DNA from: a bacterium
Lineage (GTDB): Bacteria; Joyebacterota; Joyebacteria; Joyebacterales; Joyebacteraceae
Assembly (NCBI GenBank): GCA_025782395.1
Contig: JALGZD010000224.1
Coordinates: 1-33,992 of the forward strand
Direction: 5' to 3'
DNA: 33,992 nucleotides
The notes beneath the pieces were generated by a model, which did not search any database, was not told the DNA's origin, and was given only the letters and a program-made list of their open reading frames with translations. Within the stretch, counting starts at the first letter, position 1; the number at the start of each line of letters is the position of its first letter. The translations under genes and the position numbers were made by a program. This document shows positions 542-23,466 of this stretch, in pieces.

Positions 542-3052
542 TCACTTGATAAGCACCATCTTGACCGCGTCATCGAAACCGTCGGTCTCTATGCGGGCGA
601 AGTAGACGCCTGCCGCGACGCACTCACCGCTCGCGTCACGACCATCCCAAACAGCCACGTGTGAGCCGGCATCCATGCGCCCACTCTCGAGCGTGCGAAC
701 GAAGCGTCCCGCCGCATCGTAGACCTTGAGCGTCACGTGCGAACGCTCGGGGAGTGAGAACTGCACTCTGGCCGCCGGACCGAACGGATTCGGGTAGGCG
801 AGCGACAGTGCGAGCCTCGCCTCGCCGCCGGGGTCGATCACACCCGTTCCACCCATCGACACACCCCAGATCTCAACATCATCGATGTTCCAGCCGGAGA
901 ATCGCCAGCTACTGTCGGTGGAACCCATAGTCCAGCGAAGATAGACGGCCGACTGCTCCGCCGCGACTGAAGAAATATCATACTCAAGCTGCGACCAGGA
1001 AGAATCCTCGATGTGGCTGTCCGGGTTGCTCCAGATCGTCTCCCATGACGAGCCGTCGTTGCTCACGTGGACGTAAGCATGATCGTACGAGTTGCGCTCG
1101 ACATTGAGCCATCGCCAGAACCTGACGGTCACCGTGCCAAGATTGGAACAGTCGATCGCCGAGGTCGTCAGGTGACGCTCTGAGAGGCTGTTCTCATAAT
1201 CGCCGCTCAGATTGTAGCCGTAGACGTTGGAGTTCGTGTGCCCCGACGTGGGATCGGCATTGCCATACTCGCCACCACCGCCGGTCGGCTGACCGAACGC
1301 CCAGAACCCCTGCGTCGTCCAGCCGGGGTCGGTGTCCATCGGGAAGCTGTAGGCCACTTCCGGAAGACCGACCGTTAGAGTGACGCCTCTCGAAGTGTCG
1401 CCGACGTGATCGGTCTCGTTCACAAATTCCAGCAGATCGGTGTAGACACCGTTCCCAAGGGAGTTAGCCGCGGAGTTGATCGTGACCGTCACGTTCACCG
1501 TAGCATGAGCGTTCAGATGACCGCTTGCGTTCGTGAGGGTGATCCACGCCGCGCTCTTGGAAACGCTGTAATCGATCCCCGTATCATCCTGGTTCTCAAC
1601 CACGTAGATGAACTCGTTCGGAGTGAACGGGCCGCCGGCGCTACCTTCCGATACGGTGGCGGACGATGGTGTCACGCGCATCCCGGCCGCGAACGGCGAG
1701 TAGAGATCGACCGTCGTTGCACCTGTCGATGCAGGATCCAGCCAGTTGCTCAGACGCGAGCTGCTCGAACCGCCTCCCGTCCACGATGTCGAGAACCGTC
1801 CGTACCAGTCGGACTCATCGTTGCCGCACGCGGCATAACCGCCGTGAAGCTGGCCAACGATACGATGGTCCTGGTCGAAGAGCGGCGAGCCGGACGAACC
1901 GGGCTCGGTCGTGCCGACGTCCCAGTCGACTACGCGCACGTGCGAGCCGTCGCCGGGCTGACTCGTTCCGAGATAGCTCGTTGTCTGGCAGGCATCATAC
2001 TCAAAGCTTATGCACTTGACGTCGGCATCAGGCTGATGGATGGCAGTCGAGCTTGTCGGATCCGCCGTCGTCCGGTCCCAGCCAGCGAACGTTACGTTAT
2101 GAGCCAGGTCTGGATCCGAATCGAGCTCAACCAGGGTGAAATCGGAAGTTGAGTACCCCGCCCGGAAATAAGAACCGGTCTGGTAATCGCTGAACGAACC
2201 GCCGCCAAGATCACCACAGTTCACACTCTCGTAGTTCCAGTAGACGACAAGCGAGGCTGCGTTACCCGTGTTGATGCCGCAGTGGTTCGCCGTCATGAAG
2301 TATGGGGTCCCGTCCTGGGCGGTGTTGTTCACCATGAAGCCGGTACAGAAGGTAGAACCGCCGGTCGAGATGACGCCGACCGAGGCGATGTCGTCGCGCC
2401 AACCGTCGCCTTCGGGACAGACCACGTCTATGTTGCACCATCCCGGGCTTCTGTCGATGAGTTCACCGAAACCTCGGTAACCAACATTGATCGAGCTGAG
2501 TTCCAGCTCGAGAGCGCCTACTGCCTTCGTGGCAATGGTGAGTTCGATGACGATATCGTCGGAGAGCACGACCGGTGTCCACAGCTCGCCGTGATCCTCG
2601 TTGTCCAGAGCAGTATACGGACCGGCGATGTGCGACCCGTCCGCGGCATAGATGAGAAGACTGCCGGTCGTGGGCAGACGATAGCGACCGAAACCGAGAT
2701 TGATCGATGAAGCTCCGTCAGAGGTGATCCTGAGACGCCAGAGCCTGGTCGCGAAATCCACATCCTCCCACGTACCGTCGGTCACCGGGGAGATGGAGAC
2801 TGCATTGGGAATCGCATAGCGCGGCGGGAGCCCTTGCTCCTCGCGAAGCTCATCCTCGAAAGATAGCTCCGCACGATCGACGATCGGTGCGCGCAGAAGC
2901 TCCACCGACTCCAGCGGGAGCACGTCGGCAGTGCAGGCCGTCGGTGTAACCTCGGCCGCACCGACCGGAACCGCTGACACGGCGAGAAAGACCAGGACGA
3001 TGAGGAACGCGGCGTGCGGAAGCCCCGCGCTGCTGCGGTCTCTTGCGAGCAT
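542..3052 (-). CDS. Secreted lysyl-endopeptidase-like serine protease with FlgD-Ig C-terminus
   Basis: Secreted trypsin-fold (S1) protease of 836 residues, most like Achromobacter lysyl endopeptidase. Residues 1-33 form a signal peptide. The protease domain spans about 205-440. Its triad is visible as His257 (TANHC), Asp304 (TSDFTLVEL) and Ser387 (EPGSSGSP). The SDWYGRF segment near 414 aligns by eye with the region giving lysine specificity in that family, so Lys-X cleavage is plausible but unproven. A BACON-like beta domain (about 458-560) follows, then a jelly-roll/MAM-like domain (about 566-735) with a WNIDDVEIWG ending, then a FlgD-Ig domain (745-836) ending VKMVLIK. The ATG start follows GGGAGG at good spacing. 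Probably an exported protein-degrading enzyme anchored on the cell surface. Confidence 0.88.
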   Translation of the reverse strand: MLARDRSSAGLPHAAFLIVLVFLAVSAVPVGAAEVTPTACTADVLPLESVELLRAPIVDRAELSFEDELREEQGLPPRYAIPNAVSISPVTDGTWEDVDFATRLWRLRITSDGASSINLGFGRYRLPTTGSLLIYAADGSHIAGPYTALDNEDHGELWTPVVLSDDIVIELTIATKAVGALELELSSINVGYRGFGELIDRSPGWCNIDVVCPEGDGWRDDIASVGVISTGGSTFCTGFMVNNTAQDGTPYFMTANHCGINTGNAASLVVYWNYESVNCGDLGGGSFSDYQTGSYFRAGYSTSDFTLVELDSDPDLAHNVTFAGWDRTTADPTSSTAIHQPDADVKCISFEYDACQTTSYLGTSQPGDGSHVRVVDWDVGTTEPGSSGSPLFDQDHRIVGQLHGGYAACGNDESDWYGRFSTSWTGGGSSSSRLSNWLDPASTGATTVDLYSPFAAGMRVTPSSATVSEGSAGGPFTPNEFIYVVENQDDTGIDYSVSKSAAWITLTNASGHLNAHATVNVTVTINSAANSLGNGVYTDLLEFVNETDHVGDTSRGVTLTVGLPEVAYSFPMDTDPGWTTQGFWAFGQPTGGGGEYGNADPTSGHTNSNVYGYNLSGDYENSLSERHLTTSAIDCSNLGTVTVRFWRWLNVERNSYDHAYVHVSNDGSSWETIWSNPDSHIEDSSWSQLEYDISSVAAEQSAVYLRWTMGSTDSSWRFSGWNIDDVEIWGVSMGGTGVIDPGGEARLALSLAYPNPFGPAARVQFSLPERSHVTLKVYDAAGRFVRTLESGRMDAGSHVAVWDGRDASGECVAAGVYFARIETDGFDDAVKMVLIK

Positions 3053-5208: not shown

Positions 5209-8200
5209 CTATTTCAAGAGCACCATCTTCACGGCGGCGTCGAAGCCCTCCGCCTGCATCCGGCAGAAGTAAACGCCTGATGCGACCGAACGACCATCCT
5301 TGTCCCGGCCGTACCAGACAACGTTGTGATAGCCGGCCTCGATCTCGCCGTCGACGAGCGTCTTCACCAGCCGACCGTTCACGTTGTAGATGGCAAGCTT
5401 GACGTCGCTTGCTCTCGGCGCACCGTAGGCTATTGCAGTCATGGGATTGAACGGGTTCGGCGCAACGCCACCGAGGACGTAGGACCTTGGGATATCCAAC
5501 TCGTCGTCCACACCAGTGCCCTGCTGCGGGCCCGTCACCTTCACACACCAGGTATGGAGCGTCCCGATGTCGGCGCCGGCGTTGTCGCTCACCCAGATCT
5601 CCCACTCGCCCATCGCGTTCTCGCCGATGAAATCGTCGAGCGCGCCCGGGCCATTGACTGAGAGCTCCGACGGATACCATCCGATGATGTCGTTCGCGCT
5701 GCCGCCGGAGCGGTTGTGGAGCCTGACCGTGGTGCCCTCGGGCGATGTGATCTCCACGATGAGGTCGCCGGTGTAGGTGTGCGTCAGGTTCAGATAGACC
5801 TCAACCTCCGAGACCGTGGCATCGTCCGGGAACTGCAGCTGATCGTAGACGCCGGCCGGGCTGCTGTCCGGAATCGGAAGCTCCGGGGTCTCGCAGTACT
5901 CGTAGGTCGTGACCGGGGTCAACAAGAAGTCAACGCCGCTCACGTGCCCGCCTGCTGAGATAACCACGTCATCGATCACGGCCGTGCTCCACTTCTCCTT
6001 CATCGCCGCGACCGCGTAGGTTCCGTCGTAGAGGTTCTCAATGAGGTAGCTACCGTTCACATTGGTGAAGGCGTTCTGGCCGCCTGGAGAAACCGTCACC
6101 TTCACACCGCTGTGATCGCTTTCACCCACCAGAAAGACGTACCCGGACATGCTGCCTTCCGGCTGATTTTCCTGGGCAAGCAAATATGTGACCGTGTTCT
6201 CCAGGAGCTCCTTCCGCCCGGTCGCGTCAGCAGCGCCGTAGTTGAATGAGTAGAACACGATCTGCGCGCTCGCCGGATCCGGCGTGTTGTCGTAGACCAG
6301 CACGCTCGCCAGTGTCCCGTAGTTCGACCAGCTCATCACGATGTCGGCGTCGCAGGTCGGAATGTAGGAGTCCTGGTCACCGTAGCCGGAGTAGCTGACC
6401 GTGATGTCGCCGAGCGTGTTCGGGAACGTCGTGACCGGGTGTGCTCCGTCGTAGACCGTGATGCTCGTACCACTCGAGTCGTGCTCCCAGTCGTCCGAGT
6501 GAAGCACGTTCGCAGCGAACGCTGGATAACCAGGAGAGCTCGAGGCGTCGTAGGAAAGCTCGCCGCCCTCGATGAGTAGCTTGCCGCCACCTGCGACGTA
6601 CGCCTCAAGATCATCACGGTAGCTCTGCACTCCGACAGGGCTCGTGCTGTTGCCCGACGACCAGATGATGAAATCGTAGTCCTCCCAGGTCGCGGGGTCA
6701 CTCGTTGTCGCCGTCTCCACGATGACGTCGTAGCCCAGCTCGACGAGGTCAGTCTCGAAGTCCTGCGCTGCTGCATCCTGCGGGCCGTCGTAGGTGTCGA
6801 GTACGGCGCCGGCTTTGTCGAGCTTGACTGTCTCATCCTTCGCCCCGCCGTCCTGGATGACCAGCAAGTTCGCAAGCGTCGGCTCGAGATAGAACTGCTC
6901 GTTCTCGCTCGGCTCGTCGATCACGACGCCGCGGCTCTCCGGAATGTGATGGTACGCCCGGACCTTGAACGTGTAGTTGAAGTACGGGAGCGTCACCTCG
7001 AAGCGTCCGCCGGTGAGCGAGTCGGAGAAAACCTCCGTGTAGAGCTCGCCGCTGTCGGCGCGATAGACCTTGACCAACGCCGAGAGCGGATCCATCGTCC
7101 CGGCCTCGAAGACCGCGCCGCGCACGAGTCCTGACGGCGCCGGGTCGAGCAGGAAGTCAACGGTGTTGACGTCGTACTGGATGAAAAGCTCTTCGGTGTG
7201 CGTGAGGTAGGCGAACTTCATCACGTAGACGTCGTAGTAGCCGATCTCGAGCTCGTCTTCGACCACATATGTGCCGTTGCCAATCGTCAGCGCTTCGAAG
7301 GCGGGAGCCACGGTAGCCGTGTCGGCGCCCGCCACGTAGCCCTTCACCTTCGCGCCCTCGAGCACCCCGCCGCCGTTCTCTGCGACCGAGCCTGAAATCG
7401 TACCGTAAACGACTTCGACAAGGACGTTCTCGAGATACACGTTGAATCCGCTCTTGCCGATGGCGGCGTGAACGGTTCCAGTCCCGGTGCACGTGTCGAG
7501 GATATCGACCGCCGTCGCCCCGCCCGAGTTCGCCCCGGCGTCGATGCCGCAGCCGACTGCGTAGAGATCAAAGTCCGTCTCGGACGCCGTACCCGTGATG
7601 GTGCCCTCGTAGTACGGCGCGAGGAACCCATACAGGCCGATCGACGGCACGCTCGCCTCGATGTCCGCCGACGCGAAGTCAGCAGCACCCGTTACCGGTA
7701 GCACATCCGACAGGCAGTTGTACGTCTCGCTGATCCGGCTACCGAGGACGGTGAGGTCCTCACCGTATGGCGCCGTGATCGTGAGCACGGCCTCGCCATT
7801 GACGTCGGTCGTGTCAACGACGGCGTCGATGCCCCATCCGTCGATCGTGATGACGACGTCCGGCTCCAGGTAACCCTCGTCATCCCAGACCGTGATCGTG
7901 ACGTCGGTCATGATGTTGACGGGGATCGAGTCCGGCACGATCGTGTAGGTCACCGGGTAGATGACGGGCACGTCCTCGGAGTAGCGGTAGTAGTTCGGCT
8001 TCGTAACCGTGAGCCTCATCGCACCAGGCACCATCGCCGGGATGACGGTCATGTCCATCGAAGCGCCCGTCCCGTCGGCCACGCCGATGATCTCGCCATC
8101 GATCGTGAGAGCCACAATGGAGCCCTCGTCGGCCATCACGTTGAAGATCGTCGCGCCGACCGGCAGAACGCCCTGGTGCGTGACCGTCAGATCCTCGGGC

Positions 8201-10080
8201 ACCTCCGAGTAGAGCGTTGTGAAGACGTCACCGTGTGCGTGGAAGAGGTGGTAGGTGACTTCCTTGTCTTCCGGGTTGTACGGCCAGCTCGAAGCCCAGA
8301 GGAAGTGCTTGCCCGACGCGTTGCCGAACGCAGGCCGAAGCACTCCGTTGCTCTCGTTGAAACGACCTTCGACCGGATAGCCCGGATCGAAGTCCGGGAA
8401 CATCTCGTCGTAGATGCCGAAAATGTACGTGTCATTCACGAACGAGTAGGAGCTCTCGGATGCCGCGATGATCCCGAGCGCTCCATGCTCGTGTCGATGG
8501 AACGCCTCGGCGAAGCACTCGCCCGAGATACCGTACATGCCGGTCATGCAGTTGATTGAGAACACATACGGCAGATCGGTGTTCGTGAGACCCGCCATAT
8601 CGGCGATGTCGTAGGCGGGGTGGCCCCAAGCGGTCTGGTTGCCATGATCACGGTGCTGAAGTATGAACGCTCCGGCATTGATGTCCGCGTTCAGCCTCGT
8701 AGCATTGCCGCCCCAATCGGTCAGGTGACTCGAATCCTCCGGGAGATAGCCGAGTCCCTCGGGACCGAAGTAGTCCTCCAGCATGTATGTATTAGGGTTC
8801 GTCGACCAGAACGTGCCGGGGGTTCCGGAGTAGATAGCGTACTCGCGAACCGGGGTCTTGCCGTGGACGTTGGCGAAATAGCCATAGAGAATCTCAGTGC
8901 ACATCTGGAACCATCGCGAGTCCTGCCAGCCGCACGCCATGATCGGGTCTTGATAGAAGCCGGGGTTCGTCGGCGGGTTGCGCTCGTAGCTGATAGCCTT
9001 CGTGACCAGGAGCTCGATATTGTCCGGCGTAGCCGTCATCCGACCCATGACTATCTCAGGTAGGTGGTCAGCGTCGATGTCGCCGTAGATGTTGTCGGAC
9101 AGACAGTAGCTGCTGTAGGTTGGTGAGGTTATGCCGGTGGTGCCTCCGTTCGACACGTAGTCGGCGAGCAGGAGAACCGCCACAGGCGGCGTGCTCCACG
9201 TTGTGTACGCGTTGTTGATCCAGTTCTCGATATCAGTGTAGGTCGAACCCGTTTCGGTCAGGGTCACCACACCGGAGTCGATGCCTTGGTGTACCCGCCA
9301 CTGCACGATCGAATCGGCCCACGCGACGTAGGTCGGGTCGTCCGGAACAATGACGACGTACTCGTACTCCTCATCGCGGCCCGTCTGGATCCCGTAGTCC
9401 ATCTCCGGCAGAGTTGAGTAGTTGACAAGGTTCGCCGCGAGAATCGGATCCCAGTAACGGCTCCGGTATCTGTCCTCACCGAAGTGACCGCTACCGCCCT
9501 CGAACGTCACGCGGACCTCGACATCAGTGTAGACGGTGAGCTCGCGCATGATGGGGTTGTACTGGAACGGCGTGATGCCGAGCGTCGTGACGTCGACGCC
9601 GCGCATCTGGTGCACGTCGGATATACGCACGAACTCCACAGGAAACGCCGCGTTCACCGAGTAGATGGACTCGTCCTTGACGTGGACAAGCGGTGAGTCA
9701 TCGTTCTCAAAGGGGATCTTCGGCGCCGGGAGAACGTCTATTCCTGTGAAGATCTGCGCTCTCGCAGAGAGGATCTCGAGACGGGGTATCGCTCCCTCGG
9801 GCAGTGCCATCAGTCGTCCCACGCCGGGAAGGTTCGGCGCACCCTCATCGTTCGGCAGCATGAGACCTGATATCAGGATCTGCTGGAATATCTCGCCGTC
9901 TACCTCGACGTCCTCGATGCTGATCTCACTCAGTCTGTACGAGATCTCAACGAATGAATCAGATAGCTGCTCGACCGCCAGGCCGTCCTGCCCCACGTTT
10001 TCCTCGAACACGATCGTCCGAGCGGGACAGACGGTAACCATCAGCACGAGCGCTGCCACAACCCACGGAGCGATTCTCAT
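5209..10080 (-). CDS. Giant secreted gingipain-like (peptidase C25) multidomain protease
   Basis: 1623 residues. Signal peptide 1-21, then a C25-type propeptide region (about 22-235). The C25 catalytic domain (about 238-630) shows the His-Cys dyad: His479 in DHGNQTAW, matching gingipain GHGSETAW, and Cys511 in SINCMTG, 32 residues later. Ig-like and carboxypeptidase-regulatory-like beta domains follow (about 640-1065), then a GATase/ThuA-like flavodoxin-fold domain (about 1070-1303, with DFIIWSSGN and GGGKLLIEGGE), another regulatory-like domain (1308-1388), a P/proprotein-convertase domain (about 1393-1517, TGDLIVEITSPEGT), and a FlgD-Ig domain (1530-1623) ending VKMVLLK. AGGAGG sits 5-6 bases before the ATG. 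Gingipains are T9SS cargo in Bacteroidetes, so export by a similar route is likely; substrate unknown. Confidence 0.9.
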   Translation of the reverse strand: MRIAPWVVAALVLMVTVCPARTIVFEENVGQDGLAVEQLSDSFVEISYRLSEISIEDVEVDGEIFQQILISGLMLPNDEGAPNLPGVGRLMALPEGAIPRLEILSARAQIFTGIDVLPAPKIPFENDDSPLVHVKDESIYSVNAAFPVEFVRISDVHQMRGVDVTTLGITPFQYNPIMRELTVYTDVEVRVTFEGGSGHFGEDRYRSRYWDPILAANLVNYSTLPEMDYGIQTGRDEEYEYVVIVPDDPTYVAWADSIVQWRVHQGIDSGVVTLTETGSTYTDIENWINNAYTTWSTPPVAVLLLADYVSNGGTTGITSPTYSSYCLSDNIYGDIDADHLPEIVMGRMTATPDNIELLVTKAISYERNPPTNPGFYQDPIMACGWQDSRWFQMCTEILYGYFANVHGKTPVREYAIYSGTPGTFWSTNPNTYMLEDYFGPEGLGYLPEDSSHLTDWGGNATRLNADINAGAFILQHRDHGNQTAWGHPAYDIADMAGLTNTDLPYVFSINCMTGMYGISGECFAEAFHRHEHGALGIIAASESSYSFVNDTYIFGIYDEMFPDFDPGYPVEGRFNESNGVLRPAFGNASGKHFLWASSWPYNPEDKEVTYHLFHAHGDVFTTLYSEVPEDLTVTHQGVLPVGATIFNVMADEGSIVALTIDGEIIGVADGTGASMDMTVIPAMVPGAMRLTVTKPNYYRYSEDVPVIYPVTYTIVPDSIPVNIMTDVTITVWDDEGYLEPDVVITIDGWGIDAVVDTTDVNGEAVLTITAPYGEDLTVLGSRISETYNCLSDVLPVTGAADFASADIEASVPSIGLYGFLAPYYEGTITGTASETDFDLYAVGCGIDAGANSGGATAVDILDTCTGTGTVHAAIGKSGFNVYLENVLVEVVYGTISGSVAENGGGVLEGAKVKGYVAGADTATVAPAFEALTIGNGTYVVEDELEIGYYDVYVMKFAYLTHTEELFIQYDVNTVDFLLDPAPSGLVRGAVFEAGTMDPLSALVKVYRADSGELYTEVFSDSLTGGRFEVTLPYFNYTFKVRAYHHIPESRGVVIDEPSENEQFYLEPTLANLLVIQDGGAKDETVKLDKAGAVLDTYDGPQDAAAQDFETDLVELGYDVIVETATTSDPATWEDYDFIIWSSGNSTSPVGVQSYRDDLEAYVAGGGKLLIEGGELSYDASSSPGYPAFAANVLHSDDWEHDSSGTSITVYDGAHPVTTFPNTLGDITVSYSGYGDQDSYIPTCDADIVMSWSNYGTLASVLVYDNTPDPASAQIVFYSFNYGAADATGRKELLENTVTYLLAQENQPEGSMSGYVFLVGESDHSGVKVTVSPGGQNAFTNVNGSYLIENLYDGTYAVAAMKEKWSTAVIDDVVISAGGHVSGVDFLLTPVTTYEYCETPELPIPDSSPAGVYDQLQFPDDATVSEVEVYLNLTHTYTGDLIVEITSPEGTTVRLHNRSGGSANDIIGWYPSELSVNGPGALDDFIGENAMGEWEIWVSDNAGADIGTLHTWCVKVTGPQQGTGVDDELDIPRSYVLGGVAPNPFNPMTAIAYGAPRASDVKLAIYNVNGRLVKTLVDGEIEAGYHNVVWYGRDKDGRSVASGVYFCRMQAEGFDAAVKMVLLK

Positions 10081-20159: not shown

Positions 20160-20715
20160 TGTATTCACCCCCTCTCAGTTCAAAAGCGTCGGGGACCCAC
20201 CCTTGGTCGCCTGCGAGTGAACCCTTATCAAAACGCACGGTGGTCAGGTAGCCACCGCTTCTCACCTTTGCGTATCTGCCGTTATCCTCCGTAAGAAAGA
20301 CCGTCTCCTCCATATTGCTGAATACCCGCCTCTCAAGAATGCCGTCCGTGAGCAGGATCTCCTTGCTCTCCACCTCCCGGTCCCCGTAGCGGAACACGAA
20401 TCGGCTGTCTTCGTCGAAGACAAGCTCTCCATCGCCATCCACATAGACAATGCAGATGACGTAATCGCCGGGCGTTTCGCGAACCCTCACATGAAGACGA
20501 AATCCGCCCCGATGCTCGAGGCGGATCATTTCACGTCCTGCTCTTGTTTCTTCGAGGGCCGAAGGCCATGTCTCCTGCTCTACGACGACCTTGTGCTTGA
20601 ACGCGGCTGTGACGCCAGGGGCGATCTCCCGAATGATGCCATCTCCCCCTCCCGCCCAAGCGCTGAACGTGAAGAGAACAAGCAACGCCATCACTATGGC
20701 GACATGCGGTTTCAA
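20068..20715 (-). CDS. Exported protein of unknown function
   Basis: The frame is open from 20844, but the first credible start is a TTG at 20715 behind GGGAGGAGG; the protein then begins with a proper signal peptide (KPHVAIVMALLVLFTFSAWA). This gives 215 residues. The mature part looks like a small beta-rich domain (RLEHRGGFRLHVRVRETPGD, LVFDEDSRFVFRYGDREVE, TVFLTEDNGRYAKV). No family is recognised. The last 31 codons overlap the small secreted peptide gene, and both other frames contain stops just before that gene's ribosome site, so a frameshift near the 3' end (for example at the run of five G on the minus strand, 20168-20172) is possible and the true end may be near 20165-20182. Confidence 0.6.
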   Translation of the reverse strand: MKPHVAIVMALLVLFTFSAWAGGGDGIIREIAPGVTAAFKHKVVVEQETWPSALEETRAGREMIRLEHRGGFRLHVRVRETPGDYVICIVYVDGDGELVFDEDSRFVFRYGDREVESKEILLTDGILERRVFSNMEETVFLTEDNGRYAKVRSGGYLTTVRFDKGSLAGDQGWVPDAFELRGGEYNEAVLDQVLPRSSGGSCFAGYVLRRQFGEH

Positions 20716-21153
20716 AACCCTCCTCCCACGGTCGCACCTCACTTCATGGCCGTGTTCCACGGCTGAATCATGCATCACGCGTGCCACGAGGCAGTCGGAA
20801 GAGAGCGGCCTTGTAGCTAACGTGTTTGCAGGCTTGGGGTTCACATCGCAGAATCAACGGGGAAAATCCACACAGTTACATAGGGCGAGGCAAGAAGCAT
20901 CAACTTCGTTGACAGGAAAAACGCTGCCTGACGACTCCGCCCGGCATTACAGGCACAAGGCAGGAGCCGATCTCTATCACATAGACCTGACCACATGGAC
21001 CTGGCGGCTCAGATCGTAGCTGCGTTCGCCCGCCCTCCCTGGTCCGTTTGATGGCACTTTTCTTGCATTCCATGCATGCGGCGCGCACACGTGTGCCTCC
21101 AAGAACGACAGACCGGCGGCAACGCAGTGCGGAATACCTAAAGGAGGAAGAGG
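20716..21153. other. Intergenic region with sigma-54-type promoter
   Basis: This 438-base gap between divergent genes contains no supported gene. Its main content is the -24/-12 element at 21052-21067. Upstream of that, no clear enhancer palindrome was recognised by eye. The ribosome site AAGGAGG of the next gene lies at about 21139-21145. Confidence 0.5.
21052..21067 (+). promoter_or_regulatory. Sigma-54 (-24/-12) promoter
   Basis: TGGCAC, five bases, TTGCA: the invariant GG and GC are exactly ten bases apart, as required for RpoN promoters. Transcription would start near 21078, about 76 bases before the ATG at 21154. Activation would need a bacterial enhancer-binding protein, which is not encoded in the window. 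Confidence 0.6.
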
Positions 21154-23466
21154 ATGTTTCGGAAGTCAGCTCTAATACTCGCAATGCTTATGGCGGTGCT
21201 CACCCTGATCTCCTGCAGCAGTTCGTCCACAGGACCGGGCGACGACGGAGGTGACCAGAGCGACAGCGACATCCCAACGACATCCGTCTCCGGAACCGTC
21301 GAGTTCCCTACAGACTGCACGGTGGACGCCGACGACCTTCGCGCAGTCTCGTTTATTGCACAGGCGGACGTCAGCACGGACGGCGCGTTCTCCGTGGACA
21401 TCGTCGATTCCGACACGTATCAGTGGGTGCTCATCGTATCAAAGGGTACCGGGAACCCGGTCTTCATCGCCCTCTACGATCCGACAGCCCGGAGCGTGGT
21501 CGCCAGCAGCTCAACGACGGCGCTCGCACTCTGTGCCGGCATGCCGCACCTTATCTTCACGACGCACTCGGAGCGCGAAAACTACCTCGACAGAGTCGCA
21601 GACAGCACCACGTTCGACCAGGTCCTGGCGAACCTGAACGCCGCATACGCAAGCGATGCCGAGGGCGCGCTTGACCCCGTGACGAACTCGCTTCTCTACC
21701 AGTTCGTGGCGCAGGCCGCGGAGATCGCCTTCGAGAGCCTCGGCTCCGGGGCGAGACCGAGCGTCGCTCCACCGCACATCGAAGACGCCGCCGGCGACGA
21801 TATCGTGTTCGTGAGCGAACGGCAGATATGGTACACGGCCGGCATCTACGATGCATCCGCGCAGCTCAGCGATGTCGTTACTGTGGACCGCGATGACAGC
21901 CCGGGTTACGCGTGGGGATGGCCGCCGGCCATAACGACCGGCGAGCAGGAGACCACATACGCTCTCGGCGATGGGACATTTGCCATTGCTCTCCACAAGG
22001 GCGACGACTTCACGAAGGTGGACGAGTGGAGTGACCCCGTCGGTCGCGCCACTGCCCTCAACGTGGCACAGGGCACGATCTACCTGGTCGAGCTGCTCAT
22101 CGGTTATGAAGCCGCCGTCGACGCACAGGTCCTCTCCGGCGTGCTCACGGTGCCTTCACTCTACGCTTCGGAGCTGGCGCTCGACATGCGTCAGGGCCGC
22201 ACCGAGGCCTTCATCTCGCACTTCAGCGGCCTCATCGGCAACGAGGCTGACGACATCGCCGACTGGCTCCACGGCGGGAGTGCTCCCTCCGGCGCGTCCG
22301 AGACGTTCCTCGAGGAGTCCGTGTATATCCTCGAATACATCTGCTACTACCTGGACCTCCTCAGCATGACCAACACTGAGGGTCCGTTCTTCTGGGATTG
22401 GGTGATGGCGGACATCGACCTCGCGTACGACGTTACGCAGGAGGGCGGTGTCCTCACTACGATCGATGGTCTCACTGCGCCCAACGGCGAGTTCACCATC
22501 GACCCGCCCGCGGGCATCGTCGGAACGGTCTTCGAGTTCGACGCGTCGGGCACCACCGACGACAATGATCCAATCGGTAGCCTCTTGTTCCGTTGGGACT
22601 GGAACAGTGACGGGAACTGGGACACGAGTTGGTCGAGTTCCACCACCGCGACGCACTCCTATTCCGCGGGCGGCGCCTACAGCGTGAGTGTTCAGGTCAA
22701 GGACACCGATGAACTCAAGAGCGCTGTCACGCACAACCTGAACGTCGGCGGCGGCGGCGGCACTGCGACGCACATCAAGCTATTCCGCGACGTCTACCCG
22801 TGGAGCCTGAACTCGACGGTCGATGTTATCGAGAGCCTTGGGTTCACGAGCGGAACGGGCCCGAACACCTACGAGATCGTCACGTCATCGGAGATGGCGA
22901 CAGAAGAACTCATCCCTGGCGAGGACCTGGTCATCATCTGTAACGATCAGGTGCAGTCGTTCTACGACAACTACGCGGCCAGCCAGGTCCGGTTCAATAA
23001 CTTCGTCTACATGGGTGGGTCACTGCTCTGGGAGGCCTGCGACCAGGGATGGAGTTACGGTTCGATGGAGACGGCCGGCATTGTGCTGCCAGGCAACGTC
23101 GGGACGGTGTACGAGTACTGGCACTACAACTACATCCCGAACCCCGAGCTGCCTCTCGTGGCCGGACTCCCGACGACCATGGACCACAACTACGCAAGCC
23201 ACGAGAGCTTCTCGAATCTGCCGGACGGCACGACCGTGTACTGTGTGGACCAGTCCGACAACCCGACGCTCGTCGAGTACAGCCTGGGCGCCGGCTGGGT
23301 GGTCATGAGTGGTCAGCCACTCGAGCACCAGCACGTCTACATCTATGGGGACAACGACATGGAAGAGCTCCTCCCCCGCATCATATCCTACTTCACGGGC
23401 GTGACGCGGAGCAGTCCGGTGAGAAGCGCTGTCGAGATCTCTCCTATGTCGACGAACGGCCAGTAG
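21154..23466 (+). CDS. PKD-domain lipoprotein with C-terminal GATase-like domain
   Basis: 770 residues. Residues 1-20 are a lipoprotein signal, with lipidated Cys21 (LTLISC) followed by a Ser/Gly/Asp-rich linker. A beta-strand domain (about 43-130) precedes a mainly helical region (about 135-430) with no known motif. A PKD domain covers about 442-531 (FEFDASGTTDDND, FRWDWNSDGNW, THSYSAGGAYSVSVQVKD). After a Gly linker, residues 535-757 resemble a GATase/ThuA-like flavodoxin fold (GEDLVIICNDQ, FVYMGGSLLWEACDQGWSY, GAGWVVMSGQPLEHQ), like the one inside the C25 protease at 5209-10080. The ribosome site AAGGAGG is strong. Probably displayed on the cell surface; substrate unknown. A sigma-54 promoter precedes it. 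Confidence 0.85.
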   Translation: MFRKSALILAMLMAVLTLISCSSSSTGPGDDGGDQSDSDIPTTSVSGTVEFPTDCTVDADDLRAVSFIAQADVSTDGAFSVDIVDSDTYQWVLIVSKGTGNPVFIALYDPTARSVVASSSTTALALCAGMPHLIFTTHSERENYLDRVADSTTFDQVLANLNAAYASDAEGALDPVTNSLLYQFVAQAAEIAFESLGSGARPSVAPPHIEDAAGDDIVFVSERQIWYTAGIYDASAQLSDVVTVDRDDSPGYAWGWPPAITTGEQETTYALGDGTFAIALHKGDDFTKVDEWSDPVGRATALNVAQGTIYLVELLIGYEAAVDAQVLSGVLTVPSLYASELALDMRQGRTEAFISHFSGLIGNEADDIADWLHGGSAPSGASETFLEESVYILEYICYYLDLLSMTNTEGPFFWDWVMADIDLAYDVTQEGGVLTTIDGLTAPNGEFTIDPPAGIVGTVFEFDASGTTDDNDPIGSLLFRWDWNSDGNWDTSWSSSTTATHSYSAGGAYSVSVQVKDTDELKSAVTHNLNVGGGGGTATHIKLFRDVYPWSLNSTVDVIESLGFTSGTGPNTYEIVTSSEMATEELIPGEDLVIICNDQVQSFYDNYAASQVRFNNFVYMGGSLLWEACDQGWSYGSMETAGIVLPGNVGTVYEYWHYNYIPNPELPLVAGLPTTMDHNYASHESFSNLPDGTTVYCVDQSDNPTLVEYSLGAGWVVMSGQPLEHQHVYIYGDNDMEELLPRIISYFTGVTRSSPVRSAVEISPMSTNGQ

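Follow-up and report, generated by a model that had tools for sequence, protein, structure and literature searches.

A predicted sigma-54 promoter ahead of a PKD lipoprotein gene, with a divergent partner promoter and a candidate enhancer, in a bacterium of the Joyebacterota

A gene encoding a 770 amino acid PKD lipoprotein (P0001; 21154..23466, plus strand), preceded by the predicted ribosome-binding site AGGAGG (21142..21147, plus strand), is located in the 33,992-base stretch of DNA that was analysed, hereafter the window, from a genome termed G000 below. The translated product carries a signal peptide and a lipobox, LISC, recognized by eye at residues 18-21, as well as one copy of a PKD domain at approximately residues 454-528. 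The latter is supported by both sequence profile and fold, with PF00801 scoring at its cut-off and PF18911 just below it (26.5 against a cut-off of 27 bits), and is the only recognized domain in the structure model (mean pLDDT: 72.7); outside of it, the profile search found no named family or domain. The nearest named records with this lipoprotein, sharing 83% and 99% identity, are titled Candidatus Eisenbacteria bacterium, and all of the named relatives carrying it are metagenome-assembled genomes.

The region between P0001 and the divergently oriented neighbouring gene contains an exact match to the sigma-54 (-24/-12) promoter consensus TGGCAC-N5-TTGCA. The letters TGGCACTTTTCTTGCA at 21052..21067 (plus strand) place GG at -24 and GC at -12, ten bases apart, and lie 102 bp ahead of the P0001 ATG at 21154. 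The first-pass annotation had proposed a sigma-54 site at this position on account of its motif, spacing, orientation and distance to the ATG, all of which were borne out. This is the sole match without mismatches in the window, and the single match with one mismatch (20771..20786, minus strand) precedes the divergent gene. Judging from the position of the site, transcription of P0001 would be expected to start at approximately 21078.

The divergent gene, P0002 (20068..20718, minus strand; start codon GTG at 20718 or TTG at 20715), encodes a predicted secreted protein of 216 amino acids, the signal peptide of which was recognized by a crude rule and by eye and for which no Pfam or NCBIfam family was found. 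Its putative sigma-54 promoter, TGGCACGCGTGATGCA, sits 68-71 bp ahead of the start codon, and the predicted transcription start falls at approximately 20760. Matches to P0002 occur in 19 of the 20 family genomes, G000 included, and the motif TGGCA[CT]-N5-ATGCA is present upstream of all seventeen orthologues examined, 68-190 bp before the match, a count from which weak matches in G004 and G011 were left out; a P0002 paralogue (L139) is without the site. The ATGCA at -12 in all seventeen distinguishes the P0002 family from the sigma-54 -24/-12 class, in which TTGCW occupies this position. An inverted repeat, GTGAAC-N4-GTTCAC, was furthermore noticed by eye just past the expected P0002 start in G015, G006 and G012 (L124, L125 and L130), and is a possible operator for a further regulator. 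The folding of 32 leaders gave no support for a leader-RNA hairpin just past the predicted start (z-scores: -2.0 to 1.6).

Loose matches to the sigma-54 consensus are as common as chance predicts, which would favour reading the 16 bases ahead of P0001 as a chance intergenic sequence with no part in transcription. With up to three mismatches the window contains 63 matches against 66 expected, so that only strong matches are informative, and with up to one mismatch the whole genome contains 86 matches, compared to 122 when the consensus is read in reverse, and hence no excess. The spacing of the exact matches argues against this reading, with eleven genome-wide matches at N5 compared to one at N6 and none at N4; a dinucleotide Markov model, for which 280 kb of contig C1 served as training sequence, predicts approximately 0.5 exact N5 matches per genome, versus 2.7 under independent bases. 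Eight of the eleven are intergenic and no more than 330 bp from the downstream start, and three are not. In contigs C1 and C128 (440 kb together, picked for size, with gene calls from a crude purpose-written caller), nine sense matches with up to one mismatch fall within 35,983 promoter bases versus five within 344,139 coding bases, and spacings of 2, 3, 4, 6, 7, 8 and 9 yield 0, 0, 0, 1, 1, 0 and 0 matches, respectively, in the promoter DNA. In an 832-kb sample, partly chosen by hits, the 72,093 promoter bases hold 20 matches in sense and 10 in antisense orientation, and the 700,674 coding bases hold 10 in sense orientation; other spacings give 0-3 sense matches within the promoter bases. The excess of matches with at most one mismatch is confined to DNA ahead of genes, and to the N5 spacing only.

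Genes called in the window number 24, and for 20 of them a counterpart exists in the G001 stretches. P0001 and P0002 are the only ones with a site (up to two mismatches, with GG and GC kept) that G001 shares. A further candidate with two mismatches, TGGTACTAATTATGCT, upstream of the gene at 542..3052 (minus strand), was rejected as it is not kept in G001. P0001 had initially been described as unlike the other secreted proteins encoded here; this stands insofar as only it and its neighbour have a site kept in G001, but not with regard to that neighbour, as the adjacent secreted P0002 has its own, better conserved site. The window also encodes, at 5209..10080 (minus strand), a 1,623 amino acid gingipain-type C25 peptidase with a propeptide, a P-domain and a FlgD-like C-terminal sorting domain, and C-terminal domains of this kind recur in several of its neighbours, suggestive of a type IX-like secretion route.

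The first-pass annotation had proposed searching for the motif upstream of orthologues and ahead of other lipoprotein genes, and for rpoN and enhancer-binding proteins in the genome; its sigma-54 claim withstood the two tests that it had named as refuting, those on rpoN and on orthologues. GG-N10-GC is kept upstream of all eight family lipoprotein orthologues examined, 100-130 bp before the start of the match. The site reads TGGCACTTTTCTTGCA in G000 and G002, CGGCACCTTTCTTGCA in G001 and CGGCATCCTTCTTGCT in G008, and has drifted to three mismatches, with GG and GC kept, in G006, G012 and G015 (GGGCATGATTCCTGCA) and in G010 (CGGCATGATTCCTGCA). These four drifted sites are weak evidence on their own; chance reaches three mismatches with GG and GC in approximately 6% of 100-bp stretches (per-base probability: 0.0006). 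No such site lies within the 500 bp upstream of a more distant orthologue in a record labelled Caldithrix (L074; 48-49% identity), and a second fragment with this label (L077) comes without upstream DNA. Furthermore, all thirteen paralogues examined, a count that leaves out short and PKD-only matches, carry TGG[AT]AC-N5-TTGCA 82-220 bp upstream, a -24 element that differs from the TGGCAC of the class. The paralogue clade is also represented in G000 and shares 34-39% identity with the lipoprotein (in G012 two pieces, 48% and 28%); assuming independent bases (1.5e-5 per base), a match with up to one mismatch would arise by chance within 250 bp with a probability of approximately 0.004 for each paralogue. 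The presence of the element ahead of every family orthologue and every paralogue examined, together with the spacing control, led us to reject a chance match, which we consider very improbable.

A single rpoN gene was identified in the genome (PF04552 sigma-54 DNA-binding domain; E-value: 2.6e-56). It encodes an intact protein of 492 amino acids with an RpoN-box-like SRRAVAKYRDQ near its end, lies in what appears, from the protein sequences, to be an lptB-rpoN-hpf-hprK-like neighbourhood, and is found in all twenty family genomes. The AAA+ family PF00158 has 14 matches above its cut-off, which by itself is unspecific, with all 14 control genomes scoring positive. Ten of these have an E-value of 2.2e-21 or better and the other four (3.7e-7 to 5e-4) may represent other AAA+ proteins, placing the number of enhancer-binding proteins in the genome at about ten. 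Eight of the ten strong activators were examined by Pfam: four contain a response-regulator domain (one below its cut-off), and the remaining four contain PAS, TPR, TPR plus GAF, and no recognized sensor domain, respectively. One activator, encoded on C128 (L107:12366-17222), is 1,619 amino acids in length and combines a GAF domain with an extended TPR region, and C226 and C13 harbor further very large activators, with open frames of 1,084 and 1,040 amino acids. The PAS-domain activator encoded on C174 (L169:12445-17069) has its own sigma-54-like site; it adjoins two presumed MinD-like ATPases and a presumed NifX-like protein and, by eye, resembles the ORP cluster of Desulfovibrio. GAFTGA is the motif by which activators engage sigma-54. 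It is missing from a FleQ/NtrC-like AAA+ regulator (C153:47729-49117; L167:7729-9117) that was considered as a candidate for the activator; full-length orthologues of this regulator (61-84% identity) occur in 16 of the remaining 19 genomes of the family. A text search for GAFTGA misses the activators on C14, C69 and C174, and eight activators were hence compared, by blastp and tblastn, with the 114 genes called in seven neighbourhood stretches and with the underlying DNA, the part of the G008 cluster at C66 40001-46000 excepted; no activator homologue was found.

RpoN control of P0001 is well supported by the motif, its conservation and the gene complement. RNA polymerase with RpoN would bind the -24 GG and -12 GC at 21052-21067 and stay in a closed complex, which an ATP-driven enhancer-binding protein, presumably answering to an inducing signal, would open, and the transcript starting near 21078 would lead to an outer-surface PKD lipoprotein. 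The mirror-image promoter at 20786-20771 would likewise drive the divergent secreted P0002. That P0001 would be an inducible product, as proposed earlier, is a prediction from the general action of sigma-54.

A candidate enhancer (UAS) lies between the two promoters. At 20899..20913, ATCAACTTCGTTGAC forms an inverted repeat, GTCAAC-GAA-GTTGAT as read on the minus strand, which corresponds to GTCAAC-N3-GTTGAC with one mismatch and is located upstream of both sites, at a start-to-start distance of 127 bp for P0002 and 153 bp for P0001. A search of G000, G001, G003 and G008 with the relaxed pattern GTCAAYNNNRTTGAH gave 26 places, and the reversed repeat pattern has four matches in total, both strands counted. 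Twenty-one of the 26 places were fetched, six being intergenic and fifteen within genes by our own gene calls; the other five comprise the window repeat, two places in called genes (window 7156 and C34 61779) and two in G003. All six intergenic repeats are near a sigma-54-like site (five with up to one mismatch, one with two), compared to none of the fifteen in-gene repeats with up to one mismatch and three at two mismatches, and their targets are P0002, plus the lipoprotein gene where it is adjacent, and a gene for a CehA-like protein. A stricter repeat pattern is present in 14 of the 20 family genomes. Of twelve further loci examined, seven are in genes, none near a sigma-54-like site, and five are outside genes, two of the latter belonging to the G015 copy of P0002 and the G002 copy of the CehA-like gene. 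At the other three, L193, L196 and L202, the repeat lies near sigma-54-like sites in regions with poorly called genes, and these were not counted as evidence. An IHF site within the repeat was also considered and rejected as a misfit to the IHF consensus. GTCAAC-N3-GTTGAC is likely an enhancer.

The CehA-like gene (C1:276823-278997) encodes a secreted protein of 725 amino acids, the CehA/McbA-type match of which is weak and falls short of the curated cut-off, and which has a FlgD-like sorting domain at its C-terminus. It is located approximately 26 kb from the lipoprotein gene in G001 and approximately 30 kb from P0002 in G008. Repeat (up to two mismatches) and promoter (up to two mismatches, with GG and GC kept) are both present in five of the thirteen orthologues with upstream DNA and both absent in eight (Fisher p: 0.0008, a guide value only, as relatedness is ignored); of sixteen rows, three did not enter the count, two being C-terminal fragments and one a locus that lacks upstream DNA. 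The repeat-to-promoter distance is 68-70 bp, and 80 bp in G004, approximately one helical turn more. Among the eight orthologues with neither element, those of G014 and G019 have a site with three mismatches, and the G003 gene has a half-repeat near its start codon, the other half and the promoter being missing. This joint presence and absence provides the best evidence that repeat and promoter may form one unit, and since the gene has neither element in eight genomes, it is not a family-wide target. Judging from the gene order of contig C38 in G001, C1 appears to end close to where the window contig (C47) begins.

Upstream of P0002, the best repeat match in 16 genomes has 0-1 mismatches in six, two in four and 3-5 in six, and lies 125-127 bp from the promoter in G000, G001, G003 and G008 and 102-228 bp from it in the others. 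The steadiness of the former distance contrasts with that to the lipoprotein site, which is 153 bp in G000 versus 53 bp in G001. Furthermore, the lipoprotein orthologues of G006, G008, G012 and G015 lack the repeat in their upstream DNA (best matches with 4-5 mismatches), and in the eleven paralogues tested it is absent or within apparent coding sequence; five paralogue hits with 1-2 mismatches were discarded, being by eye YSVDG-type coding of an upstream FlgD-like domain. Given that it is missing at lipoprotein orthologues outside the genus and at paralogues, the repeat appears to belong to P0002, its use by the lipoprotein gene being only possible. The lipoprotein promoter may as such be truly sigma-54-dependent, with the enhancer serving P0002 alone and another activator, acting at a site that escaped recognition, driving the lipoprotein gene and its paralogues. 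Against this stands the genus with the divergent arrangement, where the repeat is positioned between both promoters and within the usual enhancer range of each, and we rate an enhancer exclusive to P0002 at slightly short of an even chance.

Alternatively, the repeat might be the target not of an enhancer-binding protein but of a different kind of regulator, such as a repressor or an architectural protein, by which the sigma-54 promoters are tuned. This would accord with the lack of an activator homologue in the neighbourhood stretches examined and with the GTGAAC-N4-GTTCAC repeats downstream of the P0002 promoter in some genomes. It fits poorly with the position of the repeat upstream of the promoters at both the CehA-like gene and P0002, with its presence or absence together with the sigma-54 site, and with half-sites resembling those of the FleQ box, and we consider it unlikely. 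An activator bound at the repeat is our preferred reading: GTCAAY-N3-RTTGAC at 20899-20913 would most likely be bound by one activator of the class with a Fis-type HTH, and would travel with the P0002 promoter, while it may also serve the lipoprotein promoter in its own genus.

The FleQ box, GTCAAT-N2-ATTGAC (PMC10723142), has the same GTCAA/TTGAC half-sites and is the target of an enhancer-binding protein with a Fis-type HTH. The repeat differs from it in the three-base, rather than two-base, spacer of the conserved copies at P0002 and the CehA-like gene, which places it outside the FleQ box proper; moreover, the targets here are not flagellar and the FleQ-like homologue on C153 is without GAFTGA. 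The arrangement, a pair of divergent sigma-54 promoters that share a region containing a candidate activator site, is also similar to that of the type III divergent operons (PMC4641369), but there the activator gene is inside one of the operons, whereas here none was found among the 114 called genes. With respect to the promoters themselves, the TGGCAC-N5-TTGCW motif, the GG-N10-GC spacing, the intergenic position upstream of a gene and the presence of rpoN and activators are all as in the sigma-54 -24/-12 class.

Of 66 sigma-54 sites in the sampled stretches, 30 are intergenic and no more than 330 bp from a start. A crude rule for signal peptides or lipoboxes flags eleven of the 30 proteins encoded downstream, and the others include, by eye, apparent response regulators, an apparent PilB-like ATPase and further cytoplasmic proteins. 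Sigma-54 has been described as a controller of the bacterial exterior, with stress on the transport and biosynthesis of exterior components (PMC3162934). The targets here agree in part with this view, including as they do secreted proteins, lipoproteins and pilus-type proteins, but differ from its emphasis in being single secreted proteins of unknown function. No sigma-54 or RpoN study of Eisenbacteria was found in the literature searched: the word Eisenbacteria is absent from the main text of a survey of 16 phyla (2025, PMC12316311), and a rhizosphere metagenome paper (PMC11278620) names Eisenbacteria and 'sigma54' once each.

Taken together, 21052-21067 is very probably a functional sigma-54 promoter, accompanied by a divergent promoter for P0002 and by a repeat that likely binds one activator and is possibly shared. 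The mechanism is known and ordinary and the lineage little known, and the additions made here are the partner promoter on the opposite strand and the conserved candidate enhancer. Control of the bacterial exterior by sigma-54 is, as a general idea, likewise already known; what is contributed is comparative evidence for RpoN promoters controlling cell-surface proteins in bacteria of the Candidatus Eisenbacteria type. We tentatively suggest, with slightly less than even confidence, a lineage-specific surface-protein regulon in which one sigma-54 activator recognizes GTCAAY-N3-RTTGAC and one enhancer serves two divergent sigma-54 promoters. If so, P0002, the CehA-like protein and, where its gene is adjacent to P0002, the PKD lipoprotein would be switched on as a set, and the sigma-54 core promoter of the lipoprotein gene would have been retained as this gene passed from one enhancer to another. 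The analysis yields an enhancer motif that can be tested, along with a small number of putatively co-regulated surface proteins of unknown function, which together offer a practical entry to the biology of bacteria whose named relatives are represented only by metagenome-assembled genomes.
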